Shown here piece after piece: positions 2,502 through 13,059 of a DNA stretch of 64,000 nt. The stretch covers positions 1 to 64,000 of the forward strand of contig WGMA01000006.1 of the NCBI GenBank assembly GCA_016125285.1, read 5' to 3'. Both the position numbers and the translations under genes were made by a program. The notes under the pieces were generated by a model that saw nothing but the letters and a program-made list of their open reading frames with translations, did no database searches and was not told where the DNA came from. Origin of the DNA: Phycisphaera sp. Lineage in GTDB: Bacteria > Planctomycetota > Phycisphaerae > Phycisphaerales > Zrk34. Positions within the stretch are counted from its first letter, which is position 1, and every line of letters begins with the position of its first letter.

Positions 2502-3494
2502 ATGCTGATGTTGGGCGAAAAACACGGTGAAGTGGGGCGTCTGCTCGCCAGCGAGCTGGCCGAGGTGGAGACGCGCTTCGCCGCGGAGCTGGTCAGCGAC
2601 CTGGCCGCCGTCAACGACCTCGCCCGCCACCTCGAAAAATACCGCGGCAAGATGCTCCGCCCGACCCTCGTGGCGGTCGCCGGCATCGCGGTCAACCCCG
2701 CCAATCCCCTGACCGACGAGCACCGCACCATCGCCACCGTCGTCGAGATGGTCCACATGGCCACCCTCGTCCACGACGACGTGCTCGACGAGCAGGACGT
2801 CCGCCGCAAGGGCGCGACGATCAACCGCCTGGCCGGCAACGAAACCGCCGTGATGCTCGGCGACTACCTCATCTCCCACGCCTACCACCTCTGCTCGTCG
2901 CTGGACAACCAGTGCATCGCCCGCATGATCGCCCACACGACCAACACCGTGTGCGAGGGCGAGGTGCTGCAGCTGTCCAACCGCAACAACTGGTCGCTCG
3001 ACGAGCAGACCTACTTCGAGATCATCCGCCGCAAGACCGCGTCGCTGTGCGGCGTGTCGTGTCGGCTGGGCGCGATGCTCGCCGGGGCCGACAAGGCCGT
3101 GTGCGAACGCCTGTACGACTACGGCGAACAGCTCGGCGTTGCGTTCCAGATCGTCGACGACGTGCTCGACCTGACCGGCGACCCGATCGTCGTCGGCAAG
3201 TCGCTCGGCAAGGACCTCGAGAAGGGCAAGCTGACGCTGCCGCTGATCCACCGCCTCGAGACCGCCGCGCCGGCCGAGCGTCAGCAGCTGCTCGACTGCC
3301 TCCGCACGCCCGGCGACGTGCAGTTCGACCGCATCGTGCAGATGCTCAACGAGTCCGACGCGCTGGACTACTCGTCGAAGCGCGCCCGCCAGCGTGTCGA
3401 CTCGGCCAAGGCCGCCGTCGCCGACCTGCCCGACTCGCCCGCCCGCGCCATGCTCATGGACATGGCCGACGCGGTGATCTCCCGCAAGTTCTGA
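2502..3494 (+). CDS. polyprenyl (trans-isoprenyl) diphosphate synthase
   Basis: 330 residues, the usual length for long-chain all-trans polyprenyl diphosphate synthases (IspB/HepT type), which add isopentenyl units to make quinone side chains. The first aspartate-rich motif is DDVLDEQDVRR (about residues 90-100), preceded by VHMATLVHDD. The second is QIVDDVLDLTGD (about residue 220). The KMLRP motif that binds substrate is near residue 50 and GKSLGKDLEKGKLTLPL follows the second Asp motif. The residues before the first Asp motif are small (H, M, A), fitting a long chain product, but chain length cannot be fixed by eye. It is transcribed alone. The ATG lacks a ribosome binding site (see promoter entry). 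Quinone supply would serve the nuo complex encoded further along. Confidence 0.9.
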   Translation: MLMLGEKHGEVGRLLASELAEVETRFAAELVSDLAAVNDLARHLEKYRGKMLRPTLVAVAGIAVNPANPLTDEHRTIATVVEMVHMATLVHDDVLDEQDVRRKGATINRLAGNETAVMLGDYLISHAYHLCSSLDNQCIARMIAHTTNTVCEGEVLQLSNRNNWSLDEQTYFEIIRRKTASLCGVSCRLGAMLAGADKAVCERLYDYGEQLGVAFQIVDDVLDLTGDPIVVGKSLGKDLEKGKLTLPLIHRLETAAPAERQQLLDCLRTPGDVQFDRIVQMLNESDALDYSSKRARQRVDSAKAAVADLPDSPARAMLMDMADAVISRKF

Positions 3495-3549: not shown

Positions 3550-3954
3550 TCACGTCAGTGTTGCGAGCGCAAAGCATGCCCCGAACGCCAGGACTGCCAA
3601 CCCGACCAGGCTCAGGATCGCCATCCAGACGCCCTTGAGCACCCACCCCGACCGCAGCCAGAACAGAGACCCGACGCCGATCCCGAGCGAGATCAGGATC
3701 GCCAATCCCAGCGCCGGGATGCACGCGTCAAGCATCGCTTCAAGCATGTTGCCGTGTCCACGTATCCCAGCCACCGCGACGCACGACGCGGCCAGCGCAA
3801 AGTAGAAGGTCATAAACCCGCCCAGCACCTGCACGCCCTTGTCGCGCTCCGACTCCAACAGCAACTCGTCGTCAGGCGTCGGCGGCGGCTGCTCGTCGTG
3901 CCAGGGGTCCTGCGGCGATTGCATTTCGACCCGTTCGTTGTGCTCTTCATTCAT
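3550..3954 (-). CDS. small membrane protein, last gene of the Lgt-like/radical SAM operon
   Basis: 134 residues with no recognised family. A polar, acidic and proline-rich N-terminus (QDPWHDEQPPPTPDDE) is followed by about three hydrophobic helices: AGGFMTFYFALAA-like around residue 46, a middle helix near 75-95 and a last one near 110-130. The segment ERDKGVQVLGGFMTFYFA resembles the first-helix entry of the proteins at 4225-4602 and 4661-5059, and the final helix ends GACFALATLT, similar to GACFLFVAG in the 4225 gene. It looks like a diverged tandem paralog. It starts 12 nt after the previous stop. Confidence 0.72.
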   Translation of the reverse strand: MNEEHNERVEMQSPQDPWHDEQPPPTPDDELLLESERDKGVQVLGGFMTFYFALAASCVAVAGIRGHGNMLEAMLDACIPALGLAILISLGIGVGSLFWLRSGWVLKGVWMAILSLVGLAVLAFGACFALATLT

Positions 3955-3966
3955 CGCGGGATCCTT

Positions 3967-4212
3967 TCAGTGTCCTATCGACATGCCGCCGCACGTCGCG
4001 ATCAGCAGGATGAACAGCCCGATCGATAGCGCCATGATGATCAGAAGCGCGTACGCCGCGCCGCTGAGACAACCCTCCGCAAGCATCCGCGCGCCGTCGG
4101 GATCCCGCTCGGGCTTCAGCGGTAGATCTTCCTCGGGCGTCGGCTGCGGCTGCTTGTGCTGGCCGGGCTCCTGCGGCGTCTCGTTCTCTGTCGGGGGGCC
4201 TGAGTCGGTCAT
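3967..4212 (-). CDS. single-pass small membrane protein
   Basis: 81 residues: about 45 polar residues rich in Pro, Glu and Gln (PQEPGQHKQPQPTPEEDLP), then one long hydrophobic segment (AAYALLIIMALSIGLFILLI) and a short tail. The ERDPDGARML stretch before the helix echoes ERDKGVQVL in the next gene, hinting at shared ancestry with loss of later helices. It sits between two operon members with 12-nt gaps on both sides. No function is assignable. Confidence 0.66.
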   Translation of the reverse strand: MTDSGPPTENETPQEPGQHKQPQPTPEEDLPLKPERDPDGARMLAEGCLSGAAYALLIIMALSIGLFILLIATCGGMSIGH

Positions 4213-4224
4213 CCTTACCTCCGC

Positions 4225-4602
4225 CTAGTGGAACCCGCAGACCGCGTTGACGCCGGCTACGAAGAGAAAGCACGCCCCGAGCGCGGCGAGGCCGACGCTG
4301 ATCATCAGCCCCATGATGACGCCGCCGTTCACGCGATTCCACCCGCGCGTGCCGATCAGCACGCCGCCGATCGTCAGCGACACCACGCTGCTGATCCCGT
4401 ACGCCGCCAGGACGGCCACGAACAGGCCCTCGTCGTGCGCGACCCACGTCGCGACGCCGTACGCCGCCGCCTGCAGCGCCCAGAACAGAAAGAACCCCGC
4501 CATCGCCTGTAAACCGCGCGGTGGCGTCGACAGACGATCCAACACTTCGTCGGGCGATTCGTCGTGTGCGGCGTCGGGTTGTTCTTGGTCGTCGTCGCTC
4601 AT
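4225..4602 (-). CDS. small membrane protein, paralog array member
   Basis: 125 residues. The start at MSDDDQEQPD is preferred over an upstream in-frame ATG at 4722, because the upstream extension is of Arg/Ser-rich out-of-frame character and would overlap the preceding gene. An acidic N-terminus is followed by TPPRGLQAMAGFFLFW, then helices near residues 35-55, 62-80 and 92-118. GFFLFW is shared with the gene at 4661-5059 (VMIGFFLFW), and the overall layout is the same, so these two are close paralogs. Function unknown. Confidence 0.7.
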   Translation of the reverse strand: MSDDDQEQPDAAHDESPDEVLDRLSTPPRGLQAMAGFFLFWALQAAAYGVATWVAHDEGLFVAVLAAYGISSVVSLTIGGVLIGTRGWNRVNGGVIMGLMISVGLAALGACFLFVAGVNAVCGFH

Positions 4603-4660
4603 CCCATCAGTCTTTCGTGGCTGCGCACCTGCAGGTTGTGCGGTCGTGCGTCTATCGACG

Positions 4661-5059
4661 TCAGTGCCTACCAGCGCTTTCGAGAGCGGAGAAGCACGTG
4701 AAGATAAAGAAGATGACGCCAAGAAACGTCAGGCAGACGCAAAGGATCGCGGCCATGACGGTGCCGATCAGCATGTACCGCCACCGCGCGAAGATACGCA
4801 TCAGCAGCGCGATCACCGCGCAGATCCCACACGCGATGCCAAACGCGATCAGGGCTTCTTTCGTGTCATCGACGTGCCTGTTGTGGTACGTCGAGCCGAC
4901 GACGAACACCACGGGCCAGAACAAGAAGAACCCGATCATCACCTGCAACACGCGCGACGGCTCGGGCCGGGGAATGAGGATGCGGTCCTTGGTGCGAGAC
5001 TCAGCCGACGACTCGCTCGACGGTTCCGTTGTTTCGGGTTGTGGATCGTGTTCGTTCAT
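4661..5059 (-). CDS. small membrane protein, paralog array member
   Basis: 132 residues from MNEHDPQPETTE; the longer upstream reading to 5218 overlaps the previous gene and is rejected. A Glu/Ser/Pro-rich cytosolic tail leads to RPEPSRVLQVMIGFFLFW, then three or four helices, the last (VCLTFLGVIFFIFTCF) close to the C-terminus. The N-terminal block and first helix resemble the 4225-4602 protein. It begins 7 nt after the stop of the gene before it, so it is probably translated from the same message. No known domain is recognised. Confidence 0.7.
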   Translation of the reverse strand: MNEHDPQPETTEPSSESSAESRTKDRILIPRPEPSRVLQVMIGFFLFWPVVFVVGSTYHNRHVDDTKEALIAFGIACGICAVIALLMRIFARWRYMLIGTVMAAILCVCLTFLGVIFFIFTCFSALESAGRH

Positions 5060-5066
5060 GGTGTGG

Positions 5067-5534
5067 TCACGGGCCGCCGAAACTTGCTCCGCTGCAGATC
5101 GACCAGACGATAAGGAACGCCAGGGCCAGCAACGCCACGGAGCACGCGGCGCCGCGGAGGAAACTCGATGTCCCGAAATGCTTGCGCACAAAGAAGCCGA
5201 AGCCGAGCGTTCCCGCAATGGCGATCGTGATCGACACGAGCGACAGCGTCATGTCGGAGGGGCGCCACGGCGATGTCCCCGGATTGCCAAACAAGCGCCA
5301 GAACCACCGCACGGGCGTATAGAGCATCGGCATGATCCACCAAAAGGCGCCGTACGTCAGCGCGGGGATCGCGAACAGCCCGCACACGAACAGCATGATC
5401 CGTCCGGGCCAGCCGAGCGGTCGCTCCCACGTCTCGACCTCCGCCGCCTCGTCAGGCGCGGCGGGTGGGTCGAGTGTGTTGTCGGGTTGTGGGTCGGGGT
5501 CGTTGATTACCGAAACTCCTGATTGGATATCCAT
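5067..5534 (-). CDS. small membrane protein, paralog array member
   Basis: 155 residues if read from MDIQSG. A Pro/Asp-rich tail (NDPDPQPDNTLDPPAAPDE) is followed by three hydrophobic segments separated by Trp-rich loops (PVRWFWRLFGNPGTSPWRP). The 5534 ATG overlaps the end of the preceding gene by 28 nt. The start is uncertain: an AGGAG lies inside the reading frame about eight bases before an ATC codon, right where the acidic tail begins, and another ATG is at 5543. The acidic/proline tail plus membrane helices follow the pattern of its neighbours. Function unknown. Confidence 0.65.
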   Translation of the reverse strand: MDIQSGVSVINDPDPQPDNTLDPPAAPDEAAEVETWERPLGWPGRIMLFVCGLFAIPALTYGAFWWIMPMLYTPVRWFWRLFGNPGTSPWRPSDMTLSLVSITIAIAGTLGFGFFVRKHFGTSSFLRGAACSVALLALAFLIVWSICSGASFGGP

Positions 5535-5827
5535 GCGAAGCATCCGCCCATGAGGAGCAGCAGCATGCCGATCACCAGCAAGAAACCGAGCGCTAATCGA
5601 CGGCGTTCCTTCGACCTTGCACTGATCGCGGCGATGGTCAGGCCCGCGAGGGCGGTGGCTGCGACCGCGAGAATGAGCCCGATCGCGGCGCTGTCGGCTG
5701 ACTCGGCGGTCACCGCGTATGTCAGGAAGAAGGTGATCGGACAGAGAATCAGATACCACCACGCAACACTGCTATTCGCGGAGTTGTTCGCTTGTTCTGC
5801 GTCGCGCGTCTTCTTTCGATTGCTCAC
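5507..5827 (-). CDS. small membrane protein translationally coupled to the radical SAM gene
   Basis: 106 residues starting with GTG at 5825-5827. This start codon shares four bases (GTGA) with the stop of the radical SAM gene, a classic coupling arrangement, so the longer ATG reading to 5965 is not used. A charged N-terminus (SNRKKTRDAEQANNS) precedes three helices: WYLILCPITFFLTYAV, an Ala/Leu-rich middle one and LGFLLVIGMLLLLMGGCFAW. The last helix resembles the C-terminal helices of the other small proteins in the array. No family is recognised. Confidence 0.7.
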   Translation of the reverse strand: MSNRKKTRDAEQANNSANSSVAWWYLILCPITFFLTYAVTAESADSAAIGLILAVAATALAGLTIAAISARSKERRRLALGFLLVIGMLLLLMGGCFAWISNQEFR

Positions 5828-7254
5828 CTCGGCGTCACCCCCAGGGATTCGCCGTGCATGACGCGCAGCGGGGTCAGGCGGCTCGCCTCCAGCCCATCGC
5901 GGTAGAACAGGTTGTACGTGTCGAACGGGATGATGCGCCCGTCGGGGTGCACGATATGGATGCACGACTTCTTCACGCTGCGCACGTCGAAGTTATGCGC
6001 GTCGAGGAACTGGACGATCATCACGCGGAAGACGTTGTCGTAGCTGATCGACTCGGGCGTGTTGACGCCGGGCAGGCAGCACAGCAGGTGCTGCAGCGAG
6101 CACGCGGCGGAGTCGGGCGAGTGGGCGGTGGAGAACAGATCGAAGATCGCGGCGCGGAGTTTGGGGTTCTGCTCGTAGATGATCGTGTTGCCCTCGCCGT
6201 GCAACAGAATCTCGGGGTCGACGAGGCCGGTGAGCGGAAGCACGCCGCTGCCGTTGTCCGTCTTCAGGGCGTACGCCATCGCGAGGCAGTCGGGGTGGCA
6301 GGGCACGGGGATCATGTCGTCGGGCGTGATGTCGGTCCACTGATCGAGGATGGTCTGGCGGACCTCGCCGAGCGTGAGGCGGTCGGTGGCGGGGTCGAAC
6401 TCTTCGGTGCGACCGGCGTGTTGGACGGGCTGGAACGTCACGCCGCGGATCGCCGGCTGCTGCAGCGCGTAGCGGATGATGTCGCCGACCTGGTCGTCGT
6501 TGAGTCCCTTCTTGAGCGTGACGACGAGCGTGGTGGAGATGTTGTGCTCGTTGAGCCGCTCGATGGCGCGGCGGCGGATGTCGGTCAGGTCCTTGCCGCG
6601 CAGCTCGATCTGCGGGCCGGGCGTCAGCGAGTCGAACTGCAGGTACACCTCGAACGCGGGCTTGTACTCGGCGAGTCGAGCCGCGAAGTTCGCGTCGGTC
6701 GCGATGCGGATGCCGTTGGTGTTGAGCATCAGGTGGCGGATGGGCCTCGCCTTCGCGGCGTCGAGGATGTCGAAGAACCGCGGGTGGATCGTCGGCTCGC
6801 CGCCGCTGATCTGCACGATGTCCGGCTCGCCCTCGTTGCGCACCACCGCGTCCAGCATGAACTCGATCTGCTCGAGCGATCGGTGCGACATGCGCTGCGG
6901 GCTCGACTCGGCGTAGCAGACCGGGCAGGTGAGGTTGCACCCGTCGGTGACCTCGACGACGGACAGGCACGAGTGCTGCTCGTGATCGGGGCACAGGCCG
7001 CAGTCGTAGGGGCAGCCGTATTCGATCGGCGTGTTGAACTTCAGGGGCATCTGCGACGGCTTGAGGAACGCGCGGCACCGCCGGTAGTACTCGGCGTCGG
7101 TCGAGATCAGCACCGTCTGTCGCTTGTGCACCGGGCAGTGCTTCTGCAGGTAGACGCGGTTGTCGCGGATGATCACCTTCGCCTCGACCCGCCGGTGGCA
7201 GGTCGCACAGAGGCTGATGGTCAGTTCGTGGAAGAGGTAGTCGCGGTCAGGCAT
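5824..7254 (-). CDS. radical SAM protein of the MJ0619 / tetraether lipid synthase (COG1964-like) type
   Basis: 476 residues from MPDRDYLF. The N-terminus has a rubredoxin-like set, CATC (16, 19) and CPVH (40, 43). Next comes GCPYDCGLCPDHEQHSC (C81, C85, C88, C96), an auxiliary-cluster block, and then the radical SAM motif C106-X3-C110-X2-C113 in GCNLTCPVCYA. QISGGEPTIHP is the glycine-rich SAM-binding motif and MLNTNGIR the following strand. Further cysteines (CHPDC, CSLQHLLCC) follow. This architecture matches the family that includes archaeal Tes, which joins lipid chains through C-C bonds; bacterial relatives have been linked to membrane-spanning lipids. The actual substrate here is an inference. 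The start overlaps the Lgt-like gene by 8 nt and the stop overlaps the next gene by 4 nt. Alternative: another radical SAM reaction on a lipid or lipoprotein. Confidence 0.85.
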   Translation of the reverse strand: MPDRDYLFHELTISLCATCHRRVEAKVIIRDNRVYLQKHCPVHKRQTVLISTDAEYYRRCRAFLKPSQMPLKFNTPIEYGCPYDCGLCPDHEQHSCLSVVEVTDGCNLTCPVCYAESSPQRMSHRSLEQIEFMLDAVVRNEGEPDIVQISGGEPTIHPRFFDILDAAKARPIRHLMLNTNGIRIATDANFAARLAEYKPAFEVYLQFDSLTPGPQIELRGKDLTDIRRRAIERLNEHNISTTLVVTLKKGLNDDQVGDIIRYALQQPAIRGVTFQPVQHAGRTEEFDPATDRLTLGEVRQTILDQWTDITPDDMIPVPCHPDCLAMAYALKTDNGSGVLPLTGLVDPEILLHGEGNTIIYEQNPKLRAAIFDLFSTAHSPDSAACSLQHLLCCLPGVNTPESISYDNVFRVMIVQFLDAHNFDVRSVKKSCIHIVHPDGRIIPFDTYNLFYRDGLEASRLTPLRVMHGESLGVTPR

Positions 7255-8050
7255 GTTTGGGGGCTCGGGGTTCGGGGTTGGGGGTTGGCGTCTCGGGAAG
7301 ACCGGCGCGTCGCAGTTTCGCGATGCCGCGCGCGGACACGAGCACGCCGGTGAGCGACGCGAGTTGGAGCGCGCTGAGCCCGAGGTAGGGCGTGTACACG
7401 GGCTTGATGAACTCGACGCCGAAGCGCCAGGCGAGGTATCCGGCGATGAACGCACGGAACATGCAGCCGGGCGGGCCGAGGTGCTTGCGGACGAGGATCA
7501 GCACGACGCCAAGCGTCAGCAGGAAGACGATCTCGTAGAGCTGCGTGGGGTGACGGGGCACGCCGTCGCCGAAGTCGACGCCGAACGGCAGGGCGGTGGG
7601 GTTGCCGTAGGTCTTGTCCGCAATGCCCGTCAGGAAGCAGCCGACGCGGCCGATGGCCATGCCGACAATGAGCGGGAAGACATACAGGTCGCCGGTCGCG
7701 TAGCGCACGTTTTGAAATCGCTTGGCGACCTCGACGCCGACCCATCCGCCGAGCAGTCCGCCGACGATGGTCTTGCCGCCGATCCACGCGCGGACGTCGT
7801 CGCGGTGCGCCCAGTACGTCGGCCAGTCCTCGACCCACGCCAGCAGCTTCGCGCCGAACGCCGCGCCGAAGATGCACGCGACGATGATCCACATGTTCGC
7901 CTCGAGCGGCACGACGTTGCCGACCCGCCGTCGGTACCGCCGCCGCAGCGCCAGCCACAGATGGAACCCCGCGGGGTAGGCGATCAGCTCCATCACGAGG
8001 TGCGGGTGCACCTGTCGGCCGAATACCTCGATGTAGTGCGGAAACGTCAA
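7247..8050 (-). CDS. Lgt-like membrane protein (prolipoprotein diacylglyceryl transferase family), divergent
   Basis: 267 residues with about seven hydrophobic segments. Family hallmarks are AIGRVGCFLTG (the Lgt signature with the conserved Arg), RHPTQLYE near residue 168, GGLLGGWVG and a late FIKPVYTPYLGLSALQLAS block. Lgt normally moves diacylglycerol from phosphatidylglycerol to a lipobox cysteine. Two differences stand out: the usual FHGG histidine region reads TIVGG, and the Asn of GRxGN is Cys. Such changes suggest a divergent member rather than the housekeeping enzyme. It is the first gene of the operon and overlaps the radical SAM gene by 8 nt, so a joint lipid-related role is likely. 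Its last residues (PTPNPEPRAPKHA) come from a G-rich repeat. Confidence 0.78.
   Translation of the reverse strand: MTFPHYIEVFGRQVHPHLVMELIAYPAGFHLWLALRRRYRRRVGNVVPLEANMWIIVACIFGAAFGAKLLAWVEDWPTYWAHRDDVRAWIGGKTIVGGLLGGWVGVEVAKRFQNVRYATGDLYVFPLIVGMAIGRVGCFLTGIADKTYGNPTALPFGVDFGDGVPRHPTQLYEIVFLLTLGVVLILVRKHLGPPGCMFRAFIAGYLAWRFGVEFIKPVYTPYLGLSALQLASLTGVLVSARGIAKLRRAGLPETPTPNPEPRAPKHA
7259..7284 (+). repeat. G-rich repeat with quadruplex potential at the Lgt-like/radical SAM junction
   Basis: On the + strand there are four runs of four or five G separated by loops CTC, TTC and TT. This meets the usual intramolecular G-quadruplex pattern. It is the template strand for the minus-strand operon, lies in the last codons of the Lgt-like gene and sits just before the radical SAM start codon. 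It resembles a short-period planctomycete-style intergenic repeat that has been captured into coding sequence. Confidence 0.6.
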
Positions 8051-8259: not shown

Positions 8260-11200
8260 TTACTGTGAGAGCGGATGGGCGGCTTTGAGCGTTCGCGCCG
8301 GCTTGCCGGACTCATCGAACACGTAAGCCGGTGATCCGTTCCAGTCCACGGCGTCTGGAGTCAGCGCCATGTCGAACGCCTTGAGAAAGCGGTTGTACCA
8401 GACGCTCATCGGATCGGCGGTGATCTCATCGCGCATCGCCCACGCGGGCAGACCGATGACGACGCCGGCGCCGGCCTCGACGTCCTGCTGGAGCTGCGCG
8501 ATCTGCTGGTCGTTGGGCCTGGGCGAGGTCTGGTACGTATCGAAAAGAACCACCTCGCCTGGCTGAACGCGCTGCCCCGGTGTCCACGTCTGCACGTCGT
8601 ATTCGCGTGCGATATCGGGCAGGTCGTCGATCTTGTGCTGCTCGGTGCGTGTGCTGCCGAGGTAGACGCGGCCGCCGGGCTTCACGCCCATCCAGCGCAG
8701 GATGCCGCGCGTGAACGCGTCGTCGGCGAGGTGGAGTTTGTGCGTGCCCATCGCCAGCGCCTTGCCCTTGCCGCTCTGCGCGACGGCCATCAGGGGTTTG
8801 CTGCCGTCCTGCGATAGCGAGAACAGCGGCCTGCAGCGCGGACCCGACGGCTTGACGGTCGAGATCGGCAGGGCCTTGAGCTTCAGCGCGTTGAAGTCGA
8901 TCTCCGCGAAGTCGACGCCGTCGAAGATCGTCGACGCGTCGGCGTTAGCGTCGCGTGCGGGCTCGACGATCGACGAGTTCGTCCCCTTGCGCACCAGGCG
9001 GAACATCCACAGGTCGCGCTTGCCGAGGCCGCCGTGGCGGTTCGAGGCGAGCACCATCACGCGCCCCTGCGCCGCCAGATTCACGTTGCCGATGGCGCCG
9101 TTGTCGGCGCCCCGGAACAGCGCGTCGACCGGAACATGGGCGGTCCACGGCCCCGTGGAGGTCTCGCGGGCGTCAACCGTGATGCCGCGGATCAGCAGGC
9201 CGACCACGCGGATCCGTTCGTCGTCGGCGATCCACTGCGTGATGTTGGTGGTGCGGCGCGGGCCCGACTCGAGGATCTTCGTGTCGCCGAACGGCTTGTC
9301 GCGCGACGGCCGGGTCGACACGCGGAAGTCGATCTTGCCTTGCTGCGCCTCGTCGTGTGTGTGCCACAGGGTCAGGCCGTCGGCCGACAGTTGGAGCGGG
9401 TGGTTGTACAGCGGACCGTTCACCGCGTCGCTGAGCGGCGTCGGCTCGGACCACAGGTCGGTGGGACTCTGCCGTGAAGCCAGCCAGAGCTTGTTGTTGC
9501 GGCAGAACACCAGGTCCCGGCGGTCGGCGGACATCACGGCGTCGGTCTCGTGCTGATCGGAGTTGATCGGCGGACCGATGTTCTGCGCGGCGCCGAACGG
9601 CTCGTCGAGAGACCGGCGCGTGCTGATCAGGATCTCGCCGGCGTTGCCGGTGCTCTTTTCGCCGCGGCTGAACAGCAGCGTCAGGCCGTCCGAAGTGACG
9701 AAGGGGCTGCGTTCGTCCTCGGCGGTGTTGACGCCCGCCCCGAGGTTCTCGACGGCGGACCACTCCCAGTCGTTTGACGTCAGCAGTTGGATCGGAGCGA
9801 GCGCCGGCGCGGGCGCCGGCGTGGCGACCGGCGGCGCCGCCGGCGCGAGACGCTGGCTCATCCACAGATCGTCGTCGCCGTGACCACCGGGCCGATCAGA
9901 TTCGAAGATCAGCGTGCGCCCGTCGGCGGAGAGCGTCGGGCCCTTGTCGTCATGGGCCGTGTTGAGGAATTGCAGGGCGGCGGGCTCACCCCACGGGGCG
10001 CTGACCGAGGCGCGGTGTGACGCGTAGACGTCCCACCGGCCGCCTCCGCCGGGCCGGATCGACTTGAACAGCAGCGTCAGGCCATCCGCTGTCAGCATCG
10101 GCGCGCCCTCGGGGGCGTCGGTGTTGACAGCGTCGCCGAGCTTGACCGGCTTGCCCCAGGGCGCGTCGGTGGTGGGCCGACTCGATTGCCACAGGTCGCC
10201 GCGCTTGTTTGGATCGAGGTGGTCAGCCTGGAAAAACAGCGTCAGCCCGTCGCGCGAGATGCTGGGCTCGGCCTCGTTGTCGGACGTGTTGATTGCCGAA
10301 AGGTTGACCGCCGCGCCCCACGGCGCATCGGTCGACTTGCGTGTGCACATGTACAGGTCGGTCCCATTGGTTCCGGCGTTGCGGTACGACGAGAAGTAGA
10401 GCGTCAGGCCGTCCGCGCTGACGCTGGGGGCGAGGTCGGCGCCGCCTGAGTTCACTCTGGGGCCGACGTTCACGGGCGTCGTCCACGGCGCATCGACCGA
10501 CGTGCGGGTCGACGTCCACAAGTCGCTCGCGCCGCTCCCGCCGGGACGCTTCGAGTGGAAGTAGAGCGTGAGCCCGTCGGCGGAGAGGGACGCGCCGCCA
10601 TCGGCTTCCTTCGAGTTGATCACGGGGCCGAGGTTGACGGGCTCGGTCCAGCCGGAGATGTCGAAGGGCGCCTGGATCGGCGCGGGCGCTGCGACGATCG
10701 GCGCGGGGAGCACCGGCTGGGAGTCGAGTTCCATGACGATTCGGAAGCCGAGGCCATAGTTGGCGTAGTCCGGCCAGTAGGCCATCCGGCGCCCGCAGCC
10801 GAGGTCTGGACTCGCGATGTTGGTGTCGAACCCGCCGCCGGCCACGACGCGGAACTCGCCGCTGTCCGGCCCTTTGGGGTCGACGAGGTTGCCGCCGGGG
10901 CGAACACCTTTGAAGTCCGTCATCCACTCCCACGCGTTGCCCTGCACGTCGTAGACACCCCAGGGGTTGGGCGTCTTGCGACTCACCGCCTGTAGCTTGC
11001 CCTTCGCGTTGTCGTTGACCCAGTCGGTTTCCGGCAGCTGCTTGTGGTCGTTGCCGAACCAGAATCGATTCGTCGACCCGGCGCGGCACGCCAGTTCCCA
11101 CTCGGCCTCGGTCGGCAGCCGATACCGCTTGCCTTCCTTCTGTGACAGCCACTCGCAGTACGCGACCGCGTCCTTGTAGGTCACGTACGTGACCGGGGCG

Positions 11201-13059
11201 TTTGCCGAGATGTCGGGGTCGTTGGGTGGATGGGCCCACCCGACCACAGCGGCGGGCCAGTACTTGCCGTTGGGCGCCTTGGCCTGGCCGAGGAGTTGTT
11301 GCGTCTTGTATTTCGAGTTGACGATGAACTGGCGGAACTGGTTGATCGTGACCTCGGTGACGCCGATGTAGAAGCCGCGCGTCACCGTGACGTTACGCGG
11401 CGTCCACTCGGGGTGACCGGCCATGCCCGTCGGATAGCTCCCCGGCGGGATCAGAACGAGTTTCACATCGCGCTGGCTTTCGATCTGCACCGGCACGCCC
11501 ACGAGCTTCGCGAAGTCCTGCTGGTACGCCTTGGCCTGATCGGCGTCGAACGGCGCCCTGGCGAGGAAGCCCGACGGCGGGGTGGGCGAGGTCGTCGGGG
11601 TCGTCGTGGAGGGCGTCGGCGTGTCCACGGGGATCTGATGCGGATCCTGTCGCGTCCCCGTATGCCCCGGTTGCCGCGTCGGGTCGGGCGCGATGGTCTC
11701 GTCGCCACCTTTAACCGTGGGCGGAGACGGATGGGCATCCTTGGGTGTGCCGCTCGACATGAACATGATCGTCAGCGGCATGACGATGATCGCGACACCC
11801 GCCGCGAGCCCAACCCACAGCGTCATGCCCGACTTCTTGCGCGGCGCGGCGTGTGCCGCGCCGGACGGCGGCTTCGCGTCCACCGACGCCGCGACGTTCG
11901 CCAGATCGGTCAGCGTGCCCGGCTTGGAATCGGATAGATCGCTCTGCGACGGCGGAGGGCCGTCGCTGTCCGTCGGGTCGGGCATCGGCGTGGGCTCGTG
12001 GCGCGCACGCCGCGCGACGGGGATGTTCGCCAGATCGGGCACGGCCGGTTTGCCGCCGCGCTTCACCGTCTCGAGCGCCGCGATGAGATCTTCGCACGTG
12101 TCGTAGCGACCGTCGGGCTCCTTGGCGACCATCTTCCGGAACACGTCGTCGAGTCCCGCCGGCATGTCGTCGGGTAGCGACGGGATCGGCTCCTGCACGT
12201 GCGCCATCATCGTGCCCAGCGGCGTGTCGCGGTAATACGGGTAGCGGTTGGTCAGCAGGCGGAACATCGTGCAGCCGAGGCTGTAGATGTCGCCGCGCTG
12301 ATCGACCGACTTCGCGTCCATGCCCTGCTCGGGCGGCATGTACGCGGCGGTGCCCATCGACGCGTCGGTCTGCGTGAGCGTCTGATACTCGCCGCCGGCC
12401 ATCTCGTGCTCGATCCGCGCCAGGCCCATGTCGAGGATCTTGATCACGCCCTCGTGGTTCAGCAGCAGGTTGCCGGGCTTGATGTCGCGGTGGATCACGC
12501 CGTGCTTGTGCGCGTACGACAGGCCCTGCGCCGCCTGGATGATGTAGTCGATCGTCTGGTCGGGCGTGAACGGCGTGTCGGTCTCGTGCAGGATCGCGCC
12601 GAGGTCCTTGCCGTCGACGCACTCCATCGCCAGGTACAGCAGGTCGTCGGTGTGGCCGGCATCGTAGGCGGTGACGATGTTGGGGTGTAGCAGCTTGCCC
12701 GCGGCGCGCACCTCGCGGAGGAACCGCTGCATCGCCTGATCGTCGTCGGCGATCGACGGCGGCAACACCTTGATCGCCACCTCGCGATGCATCACGCGGT
12801 GACGCGCCCGGTAGACCGCGCCCATGCCGCCCTGGCCGATCTTGTCGATCACGACGTAGTCGCCGATCACCAGCGCCGCCGGGTCACCCTTCGTGAGGAT
12901 CTTCGCCTGGTGAGCGGTCAGCACACCGCGCTCGGCCAGCGTCTGCGTCAATTCCGCCACCGACATGTCCGGCGAGTGCTCTGACGCGATGTCCGCCGCC
13001 GATTTCTCGTCGACGATCCCCAGGCGGGTCATCTCGTTGATCAGATCCAACGGCTGCAT
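8260..13059 (-). CDS. giant membrane Ser/Thr protein kinase with FGE-like and WD40-like propeller regions
   Basis: 1599 residues. A Hanks-type kinase domain covers about 67-330: P-loop GQGGMGAV (75-82), VAIK Lys97, HRDIKPGN (Asp192), DMG in place of DFG (210-212) and MPPEQ in the activation segment, so it should be active. A Pro-rich linker leads to one membrane helix (about 412-435). Outside are an FGE/sulfatase-modifying-factor fold (about 530-780, EAEWELACRAG and GNAWEW) and many PD40 propeller repeats (about 800-1330, for example LSADGLTLYF). A C-terminal domain (about 1380-1599) resembles a GATase-like fold but is not identified. The FGE part keeps one Cys (LGCGRR) but lacks the second catalytic Cys, so it is probably a binding module. 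GGGAG precedes the ATG. It likely senses an extracellular ligand and signals to unknown targets. Confidence 0.88.
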   Translation of the reverse strand: MQPLDLINEMTRLGIVDEKSAADIASEHSPDMSVAELTQTLAERGVLTAHQAKILTKGDPAALVIGDYVVIDKIGQGGMGAVYRARHRVMHREVAIKVLPPSIADDDQAMQRFLREVRAAGKLLHPNIVTAYDAGHTDDLLYLAMECVDGKDLGAILHETDTPFTPDQTIDYIIQAAQGLSYAHKHGVIHRDIKPGNLLLNHEGVIKILDMGLARIEHEMAGGEYQTLTQTDASMGTAAYMPPEQGMDAKSVDQRGDIYSLGCTMFRLLTNRYPYYRDTPLGTMMAHVQEPIPSLPDDMPAGLDDVFRKMVAKEPDGRYDTCEDLIAALETVKRGGKPAVPDLANIPVARRARHEPTPMPDPTDSDGPPPSQSDLSDSKPGTLTDLANVAASVDAKPPSGAAHAAPRKKSGMTLWVGLAAGVAIIVMPLTIMFMSSGTPKDAHPSPPTVKGGDETIAPDPTRQPGHTGTRQDPHQIPVDTPTPSTTTPTTSPTPPSGFLARAPFDADQAKAYQQDFAKLVGVPVQIESQRDVKLVLIPPGSYPTGMAGHPEWTPRNVTVTRGFYIGVTEVTINQFRQFIVNSKYKTQQLLGQAKAPNGKYWPAAVVGWAHPPNDPDISANAPVTYVTYKDAVAYCEWLSQKEGKRYRLPTEAEWELACRAGSTNRFWFGNDHKQLPETDWVNDNAKGKLQAVSRKTPNPWGVYDVQGNAWEWMTDFKGVRPGGNLVDPKGPDSGEFRVVAGGGFDTNIASPDLGCGRRMAYWPDYANYGLGFRIVMELDSQPVLPAPIVAAPAPIQAPFDISGWTEPVNLGPVINSKEADGGASLSADGLTLYFHSKRPGGSGASDLWTSTRTSVDAPWTTPVNVGPRVNSGGADLAPSVSADGLTLYFSSYRNAGTNGTDLYMCTRKSTDAPWGAAVNLSAINTSDNEAEPSISRDGLTLFFQADHLDPNKRGDLWQSSRPTTDAPWGKPVKLGDAVNTDAPEGAPMLTADGLTLLFKSIRPGGGGRWDVYASHRASVSAPWGEPAALQFLNTAHDDKGPTLSADGRTLIFESDRPGGHGDDDLWMSQRLAPAAPPVATPAPAPALAPIQLLTSNDWEWSAVENLGAGVNTAEDERSPFVTSDGLTLLFSRGEKSTGNAGEILISTRRSLDEPFGAAQNIGPPINSDQHETDAVMSADRRDLVFCRNNKLWLASRQSPTDLWSEPTPLSDAVNGPLYNHPLQLSADGLTLWHTHDEAQQGKIDFRVSTRPSRDKPFGDTKILESGPRRTTNITQWIADDERIRVVGLLIRGITVDARETSTGPWTAHVPVDALFRGADNGAIGNVNLAAQGRVMVLASNRHGGLGKRDLWMFRLVRKGTNSSIVEPARDANADASTIFDGVDFAEIDFNALKLKALPISTVKPSGPRCRPLFSLSQDGSKPLMAVAQSGKGKALAMGTHKLHLADDAFTRGILRWMGVKPGGRVYLGSTRTEQHKIDDLPDIAREYDVQTWTPGQRVQPGEVVLFDTYQTSPRPNDQQIAQLQQDVEAGAGVVIGLPAWAMRDEITADPMSVWYNRFLKAFDMALTPDAVDWNGSPAYVFDESGKPARTLKAAHPLSQ

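Follow-up and report, generated by a model that had tools for sequence, protein, structure and literature searches.

A candidate protein-lipidation module of an Lgt-like protein, a Tes-related radical SAM enzyme and small Cys-tailed membrane proteins in a Phycisphaera operon

Results and Discussion

The 64,000 nucleotides (nt) analysed here (contig WGMA01000006.1, positions 1 to 64,000, from Phycisphaera sp. assembly GCA_016125285.1; referred to as the window) contain a tightly packed minus-strand operon, in which genes for an Lgt-like membrane protein and a radical S-adenosylmethionine (SAM) enzyme, here termed RSAM, are followed by six genes for small membrane proteins, S1-S6. On balance, comparison with related loci suggests that this operon is a local copy of a widespread protein-lipidation module with three parts, a judgement that weighs the first two steps of the mechanism outlined below. 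It is nearly certain that the module is a unit, and lipidation of a Cys close to the C-terminus of the small proteins appears likely, while a role of RSAM as a modifier of the lipid is proposed more tentatively, its chances falling somewhat short of even.

Conservation of the gene neighbourhood

RSAM relatives are present at E<=1e-30 in 60 of 392 Planctomycetota genomes. Besides the window, 27 full or near-full-length close orthologues (52-66% identity) and one contig-edge fragment were found in this phylum. An Lgt-like gene adjoins 21 of the 27 orthologues according to tblastn, one more was recovered in a second round, and most of those with no Lgt-like neighbour detected lie near a contig end. 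A scan of named genomes gave at least 560 RSAM relatives, of which the top 80 were kept (a few of them Planctomycetota), and added proteins of 57-70% identity from Paenibacillus, Brevibacillus, Fictibacillus, Cylindrospermum, Acidobacteriota, Bacteroidota, Pseudomonadota and others, and the hosts also include Flavobacterium and Hymenobacter. A same-strand Lgt-like gene is located within 4 kb of RSAM in 69 of these 80 loci, which belong to Bacillota, Bacteroidota, Cyanobacteriota and other phyla. Among the remaining 11 loci, five have a contig end no more than 310 nt upstream of the RSAM gene, and in a sixth (L238) the Lgt-like gene lies on the opposite strand. The arrangement of Lgt-like and RSAM genes is well above chance. 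The initial annotation had named the neighbourhood in other Planctomycetota as a check on its proposal, and the finding that it is conserved well beyond this phylum speaks for a functional unit.

Small membrane proteins with a C-terminal Cys

Side-by-side reading of the small proteins revealed a common feature, a Cys at the end of the last helix followed by a short tail. Small transmembrane (TM) proteins of 35-200 amino acids (aa), encoded in a tight run with the RSAM and Lgt-like genes, were therefore scored for a Cys within the last 32 residues and downstream of a hydrophobic 16-mer. This ending is present in 84 of 108 such linked proteins, in 64 of the 72 loci having any, and in all six proteins of the window; a fairer test, confined to loci of other organisms, gave 51 of 62 by hand count. 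The corresponding figures are one in 26 for small TM proteins from 20 other stretches of the same genome and the rest of the window, and 10 in 106 for those distant from RSAM in the same loci. The latter control is conservative, as it holds at least five likely displaced module members (in L086, L091, L094, L095 and L225). A further 59 small TM proteins near RSAM, 38 of them with the Cys, fall outside the strict run and were left out of the count. Since related sequences are not independent, the count by single-linkage family is the safer figure, with the TM-Cys ending in 15 of 29 linked versus 9 of 89 control families (p 7.8e-6).

Conservation peaks at the Cys column both in the largest family (95% of 38 proteins from several phyla), which includes S1, S3, S4, S5 and S6, and in the second largest (100% of 24 proteins, mostly from Bacteroidota); S2 stands alone with the same ending. 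The shortest of the proteins, 38 aa in a Paenibacillus lautus locus and 41 aa on contig C60 of the same genome as the window, consist of one helix and the Cys. The Cys and tail together span 4-26 aa, mostly 6-14, and one to six linked small proteins are found per locus. In one locus (L099, 5753-8937) seven consecutive small membrane proteins, several of them paralogous and some without the C-terminal Cys, are encoded between the RSAM and Lgt-like genes. Searches of the small proteins against Pfam and NCBIfam returned no named family. The NCBIfam model NF058595, a 'lipo-invert putative C-terminal anchoring domain' which, to judge from its name, embodies a related concept of lipid anchoring at the C-terminus, was considered and rejected: S1 and S2 score 17.7 and 8.8 bits against a cut-off of 37 and S3-S6 are unlisted; nothing in the genome of the window exceeds the cut-off, and at E<=10 matches occur in all 14 control genomes; among the 392 Planctomycetota genomes a single one exceeds the cut-off, with an open reading frame (ORF) of 1583 aa.

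The initial annotation regarded the small proteins as accessory parts, whereas the invariant Cys near their C-terminus points to a role as substrates. An accessory role would be retained if they formed a structural complex, anchoring or regulating both enzymes, with a Cys that serves as a metal ligand or in a disulfide and is not lipidated. One conserved Cys is by itself no proof of lipidation, and several of the small proteins carry N-terminal CxxC ribbons. A copy number varying from one to six and the occurrence of single-helix members of only 38-41 aa nevertheless fit substrates rather than fixed subunits, and the neighbouring gene encodes a member of an enzyme class whose target is a Cys on the outer side of the membrane, which makes this alternative unlikely.

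The distribution of charges is consistent with such a location of the Cys. The 84 Cys-tailed proteins hold 246 K/R and 51 D/E before the last helix and 19 and 9, respectively, in the tail, and 75 of them are more positive ahead of the last helix. As basic stretches face the cytoplasm under the positive-inside rule, the Cys is probably at the outer face, the side on which Lgt acts. The C-terminal part may thus be built like a lipoprotein signal peptide, with basic stretch, hydrophobic helix and outer Cys in the same order. A conserved His or Arg ending the tail was also considered; His is last in 18 and Arg in 9 of the 84 proteins, a pattern suggestive in Bacteroidota and not general.

The closest system in concept is MYXO-CTERM/myxosortase, in which an invariant Cys lies beside a C-terminal TM helix and for which a lipidating Lgt-like enzyme was predicted by the authors (PMC11980579). 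The Cys adjoins the C-terminal helix in both systems. However, the MYXO-CTERM Cys precedes the helix and its tail is cytoplasmic and Arg-rich, while the small proteins show the order basic stretch, helix, Cys and low-charge tail, the tail probably facing outside; the MYXO-CTERM layout was not found in them.

The Lgt-like protein

The identification of the first gene product as Lgt-like, made in the initial annotation, is well founded. It matches the Pfam family LGT (PF01790) with 89.4 bits (cut-off 24.9), and its AlphaFold2 (AF2) model, with a predicted local distance difference test (pLDDT) score of 86, aligns with E. coli Lgt (5azb) over 237 residues (Z 15.2, root mean square deviation 4.7), the runner-up in the PDB reaching Z 6.6. 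Judged from this model, the protein has the Lgt fold. It stays under every NCBIfam Lgt cut-off, with 48.2 bits against the 118.9 needed for TIGR00544.

A residue table of 104 Lgt-like proteins taken from RSAM loci (E. coli Lgt numbering) shows that the equivalents of G142, R143, Y235 and R239 are invariant (104/104), so that the phospholipid-site residues R143, Y235 and R239 are kept; E or D occupies the E243 position in 102 of the 104, and the HPxQLYE motif of canonical Lgt is also retained. In contrast to canonical Lgt, His103 of the HGGL motif is found in none of the 104 and Asn146 is replaced by Cys in all of them. The window protein conforms to this pattern, with the R143, Y235, R239 and E243 equivalents present, Val at position 103 and Cys at position 146. 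In E. coli Lgt, replacements of H103, R143, R239 and Y235 are reported to kill activity, except for the partly active Y235T (Mao et al., PMC4728403), and N146A is given as inactive in a review (PMC8689077). By their sequences, the lipid-binding side of Lgt is kept in the Lgt-like proteins and the proposed catalytic base is not, and the invariant Cys at the N146 position may have taken a role in catalysis. A further difference from the canonical system is that the presumed substrate has its Cys at the C-terminus.

The genome also encodes a canonical Lgt with HGG and GRxxN motifs (contig C55), and ordinary lipoproteins need thus not depend on the Lgt-like paralogue. A third paralogue, on contig C22 (L254, 8855-10366), lacks the catalytic His, has a GRxGC motif and has no RSAM nearby; its surroundings were inspected for a link to Cys-tailed proteins that does not involve RSAM. 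No C-terminal-Cys protein was found beside it, where the gene finder had picked shadow ORFs, and its neighbour is an ordinary N-terminal lipoprotein.

A radical SAM enzyme related to, yet distinct from, Tes

RSAM matches the Pfam families Radical_SAM (83.5 bits) and HMPTM zinc ribbon (56.7 bits), and its closest solved structure is MJ0619 (Tes, also GDGT-MAS; PDB 7tol; E 9.5e-71). The top NCBIfam model is TrsS (NF045646), at 320 bits versus a cut-off of 490; the Tes model NF045702 gives 292 bits versus 450, so that neither cut-off is reached. For closer comparison, 107 RSAMs of the clade that includes the window protein (27 from Planctomycetota loci, the window included, and 80 from the named-genome scan) were aligned with three other bacterial clades and MJ0619. 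The window protein shares with Tes the overall architecture, the rubredoxin-like motif C-x2-C-x20-C-x2-H, the N-auxiliary CCC(H) and the radical SAM (RS) motif CxxxCxxC, and the ligands of these three sites are kept in all complete rows, save for one X in a low-quality row. The C-auxiliary site, an [Fe4S4] site whose cluster-binding cysteines in Tes were assigned from the alignment, differs: C455 is replaced by S, T or A and C470 by D or E in 107/107 proteins, and C456 is retained in 107/107 (S430, C431 and D445 in the window protein). The statement of the initial annotation that RSAM has the whole cysteine layout of MJ0619/Tes is therefore incorrect, Ser and Asp being present for Cys455 and Cys470. 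Two other Tes residues, Met439 and Tyr459, are named at this site in the literature and both align on the expected residues; Y459 is replaced by I, F or V (Ile in the window protein), and Met439 is matched by Met in 79 of the 107 (Val in the window protein). A new Cys-Cys pair appears, with C392 in 104 and C393 in 105 of the 107. In Tes the substrate is reported to be held via a bond to a cluster sulfur (PMC9433317), and the rewired cluster thus argues against identical chemistry.

A phylogeny, another check named at the outset, was inferred by a quick method from 95 rows. The window clade has full support (Shimodaira-Hasegawa-like approximate likelihood ratio test, SH-aLRT, 100) and a long stem, and is separated from MJ0619, a partial row on a long branch, as well as from clades B, C and D. 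From its sequence, RSAM is a member of a separate clade related to Tes and TrsS and not a Tes in the strict sense. The designation as a tetraether-synthase-type enzyme thus holds as far as Tes is the closest solved relative and fails on the cut-offs, the C-auxiliary ligands and the clade; likewise, the pairing of lipid-related genes that led to the proposal of a lipid-modifying pathway stands, whereas the phylogeny speaks against a Tes function.

An operon for membrane-spanning lipids, in which RSAM would couple lipid tails as Tes does, assisted by the Lgt-like and small proteins, would agree with the relationship to Tes and with the RS core residues, which are mostly retained, and bacterial Tes homologues have been treated in surveys as candidate makers of branched glycerol dialkyl glycerol tetraethers (PMC8941075, PMC11868695). 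Several observations render this quite improbable: the C-auxiliary cluster, the substrate attachment site of Tes, has other ligands throughout a clade that is separate and has its own genomic context, and the C-terminal Cys is left unexplained. In addition, its hosts include Flavobacterium, Hymenobacter and Paenibacillus, which are not known for membrane-spanning lipids.

The genomic contexts of the other clades vary. Lgt-like genes also adjoin the RSAM genes of clade B (TrsS-like) and of clade C, to which the copy on contig C60 belongs, and small Cys-tailed proteins are often encoded there too. No Lgt-like neighbour was found in clade D loci, in several of which the RSAM gene sits within a fatty-acid synthesis cluster. 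Lgt-like neighbours thus accompany clades A-C, the window clade among them, and the link to Lgt is not general to Tes relatives. The contig C60 unit (L037, 8900-12031) is a second Lgt-like/RSAM unit in the genome of the window; its 41-aa single-helix peptide ends in GFLAGMCGLSFR and is encoded by an ORF overlapping the Lgt-like stop, and the unit further comprises a gene for a DUF2784 protein and a 239-aa ORF with no TM helix. TrsS-like RSAM genes of Planctomycetota with an in-frame TGA, candidate selenoproteins in two members of the clade, each adjoin an Lgt-like gene (L096, G170:C293; L072/L097, G165:C34). A TrsS-like copy on a Mycolicibacterium vanbaalenii plasmid (L252, NZ_CP126902.1) differs in having as neighbours a methyltransferase, a second radical SAM protein, CcdA, a disulfide oxidoreductase and a PhnD-type binding protein. 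Four Planctomycetota loci (L101, L105, L106 and L108) contain Tes-related RSAM genes, often paired, in fatty-acid-type clusters with ketoacyl synthase, FabA-like dehydratase, FabG-like reductases, acyl carrier protein, class-III aminotransferase and fatty-acid hydroxylase genes, possibly directed to unusual or ladderane-like fatty acids.

Proposed mechanism

In the proposed lipidation module, the small membrane proteins would be the substrates, and the Lgt-like enzyme, as a dedicated Lgt paralogue, would move a lipid group from a phospholipid to their C-terminal Cys. The product may be a diacylglyceryl thioether, or an acyl thioester formed via the invariant active-site Cys of the Lgt-like enzyme itself. 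RSAM would alter the lipid before or after transfer, in a reaction not identical to that of Tes. RSAM has no predicted TM helix and is presumably cytoplasmic; it could hardly reach a Cys at the outer face, and we infer that it more plausibly acts on a lipid tail within the membrane core. In a bolder form, which we regard as doubtful, lipidation would depend on RSAM: once the Lgt-like enzyme has modified the Cys, RSAM would link the lipid tail inside the membrane to a further carbon or sulfur atom, for example of a lipid in the opposite leaflet, so that the protein would acquire a covalent lipid anchor that spans the membrane or is unique in some other way.

A number of points weigh against protein lipidation as the function of the module. 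The case is built on sequence evidence: the conserved gene triad, the Cys with its surroundings and the kept and lost catalytic residues are observed, while the lipidation, the topology and the part played by RSAM are deduced. The criterion for the Cys was fixed after the pattern had been seen in Planctomycetota examples, 24 of the 108 linked small proteins miss it, and the residue preceding the Cys (A/T/I/V/G) is only a loose lipobox match. The absence of His103 and the replacement of Asn146 affect positions important in canonical Lgt. The function and substrate of RSAM in the module remain putative, and its AF2 model was poor (mean pLDDT 57.8) and was set aside.

A lipopeptide precursor, from which LspA or another protease would cut before the lipidated Cys to free a short S-lipidated tail peptide, would suit the short Cys-plus-tail segment and the LspA gene in the genome, but is very unlikely, as no protease gene recurs in the module among the protein clusters examined, the tail sequences vary and the residue before the Cys is often T, I or V.

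Organization of the operon in the window

The genes are listed in Table 1, with S1-S6 extending from 5827 to 3550. The ORF coordinates bear out the compact layout described in the initial annotation: the Lgt-like and RSAM genes overlap by 8 nt, the RSAM and S1 genes overlap by GTGA, and the gaps ahead of S3, S4, S5 and S6 are 7, 58, 12 and 12 nt, S2 abutting or overlapping S1. A hydropathy scan predicts two to four TM segments in each of S1-S6, in agreement with six small membrane proteins. An upstream gene (8260-13059), protein kinase-like by sequence, is separated from the operon by 209 nt, and a polyprenyl synthase gene (2502-3494) flanks it on the opposite strand.

Table 1. Coordinates of the operon genes in the window.
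Feature	Position	Strand	Size and start	C-terminal end	Basis
Lgt-like membrane protein	7247..8050	-	267 aa, TTG start		PF01790, AF2 model, residue table
Radical SAM enzyme (RSAM)	5824..7254	-	476 aa, ATG at 7254, stop ends 5824
S1, small membrane protein	5507..5827	-	GTG start at 5827 within RSAM stop	LLLLMGGCFAWISNQEFR
S2, small membrane protein	5067..5534	-	start uncertain (5543, 5534 or 5510)	LIVWSICSGASFGGP
S3, small membrane protein	4661..5059	-		FFIFTCFSALESAGRH
S4, small membrane protein	4225..4602	-		LAALGACFLFVAGVNAVCGFH
S5, small membrane protein	3967..4212	-		FILLIATCGGMSIGH
S6, small membrane protein	3550..3954	-		LAVLAFGACFALATLT

Implications

C-terminal lipid anchoring has been conceived before, in the MYXO-CTERM prediction and in the 'lipo-invert' name. 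Literature searches for the combination of an Lgt-like protein, RSAM and Cys-tailed small proteins or for C-terminal lipoboxes found no description, within a coverage that excluded bioRxiv and most subscription journals. If correct, the module would constitute an undescribed route of protein lipidation, with a C-terminal Cys signal and a dedicated enzyme, in hundreds of bacterial genomes, including those of culturable carriers such as Paenibacillus, Flavobacterium and Hymenobacter. A large group of Lgt-like proteins that lack the catalytic His, and an entire clade of Tes relatives, would also gain a function. There may be consequences for organic geochemistry as well. Tes homologues have been counted in 110 of 684 Black Sea Planctomycetota metagenome-assembled genomes as possible makers of branched tetraethers (PMC11868695). 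If members of the window clade are among such survey hits, homology alone would be no ground for counting them, and the residues at the C455 and C470 positions together with the Lgt-like neighbour distinguish this clade from Tes.

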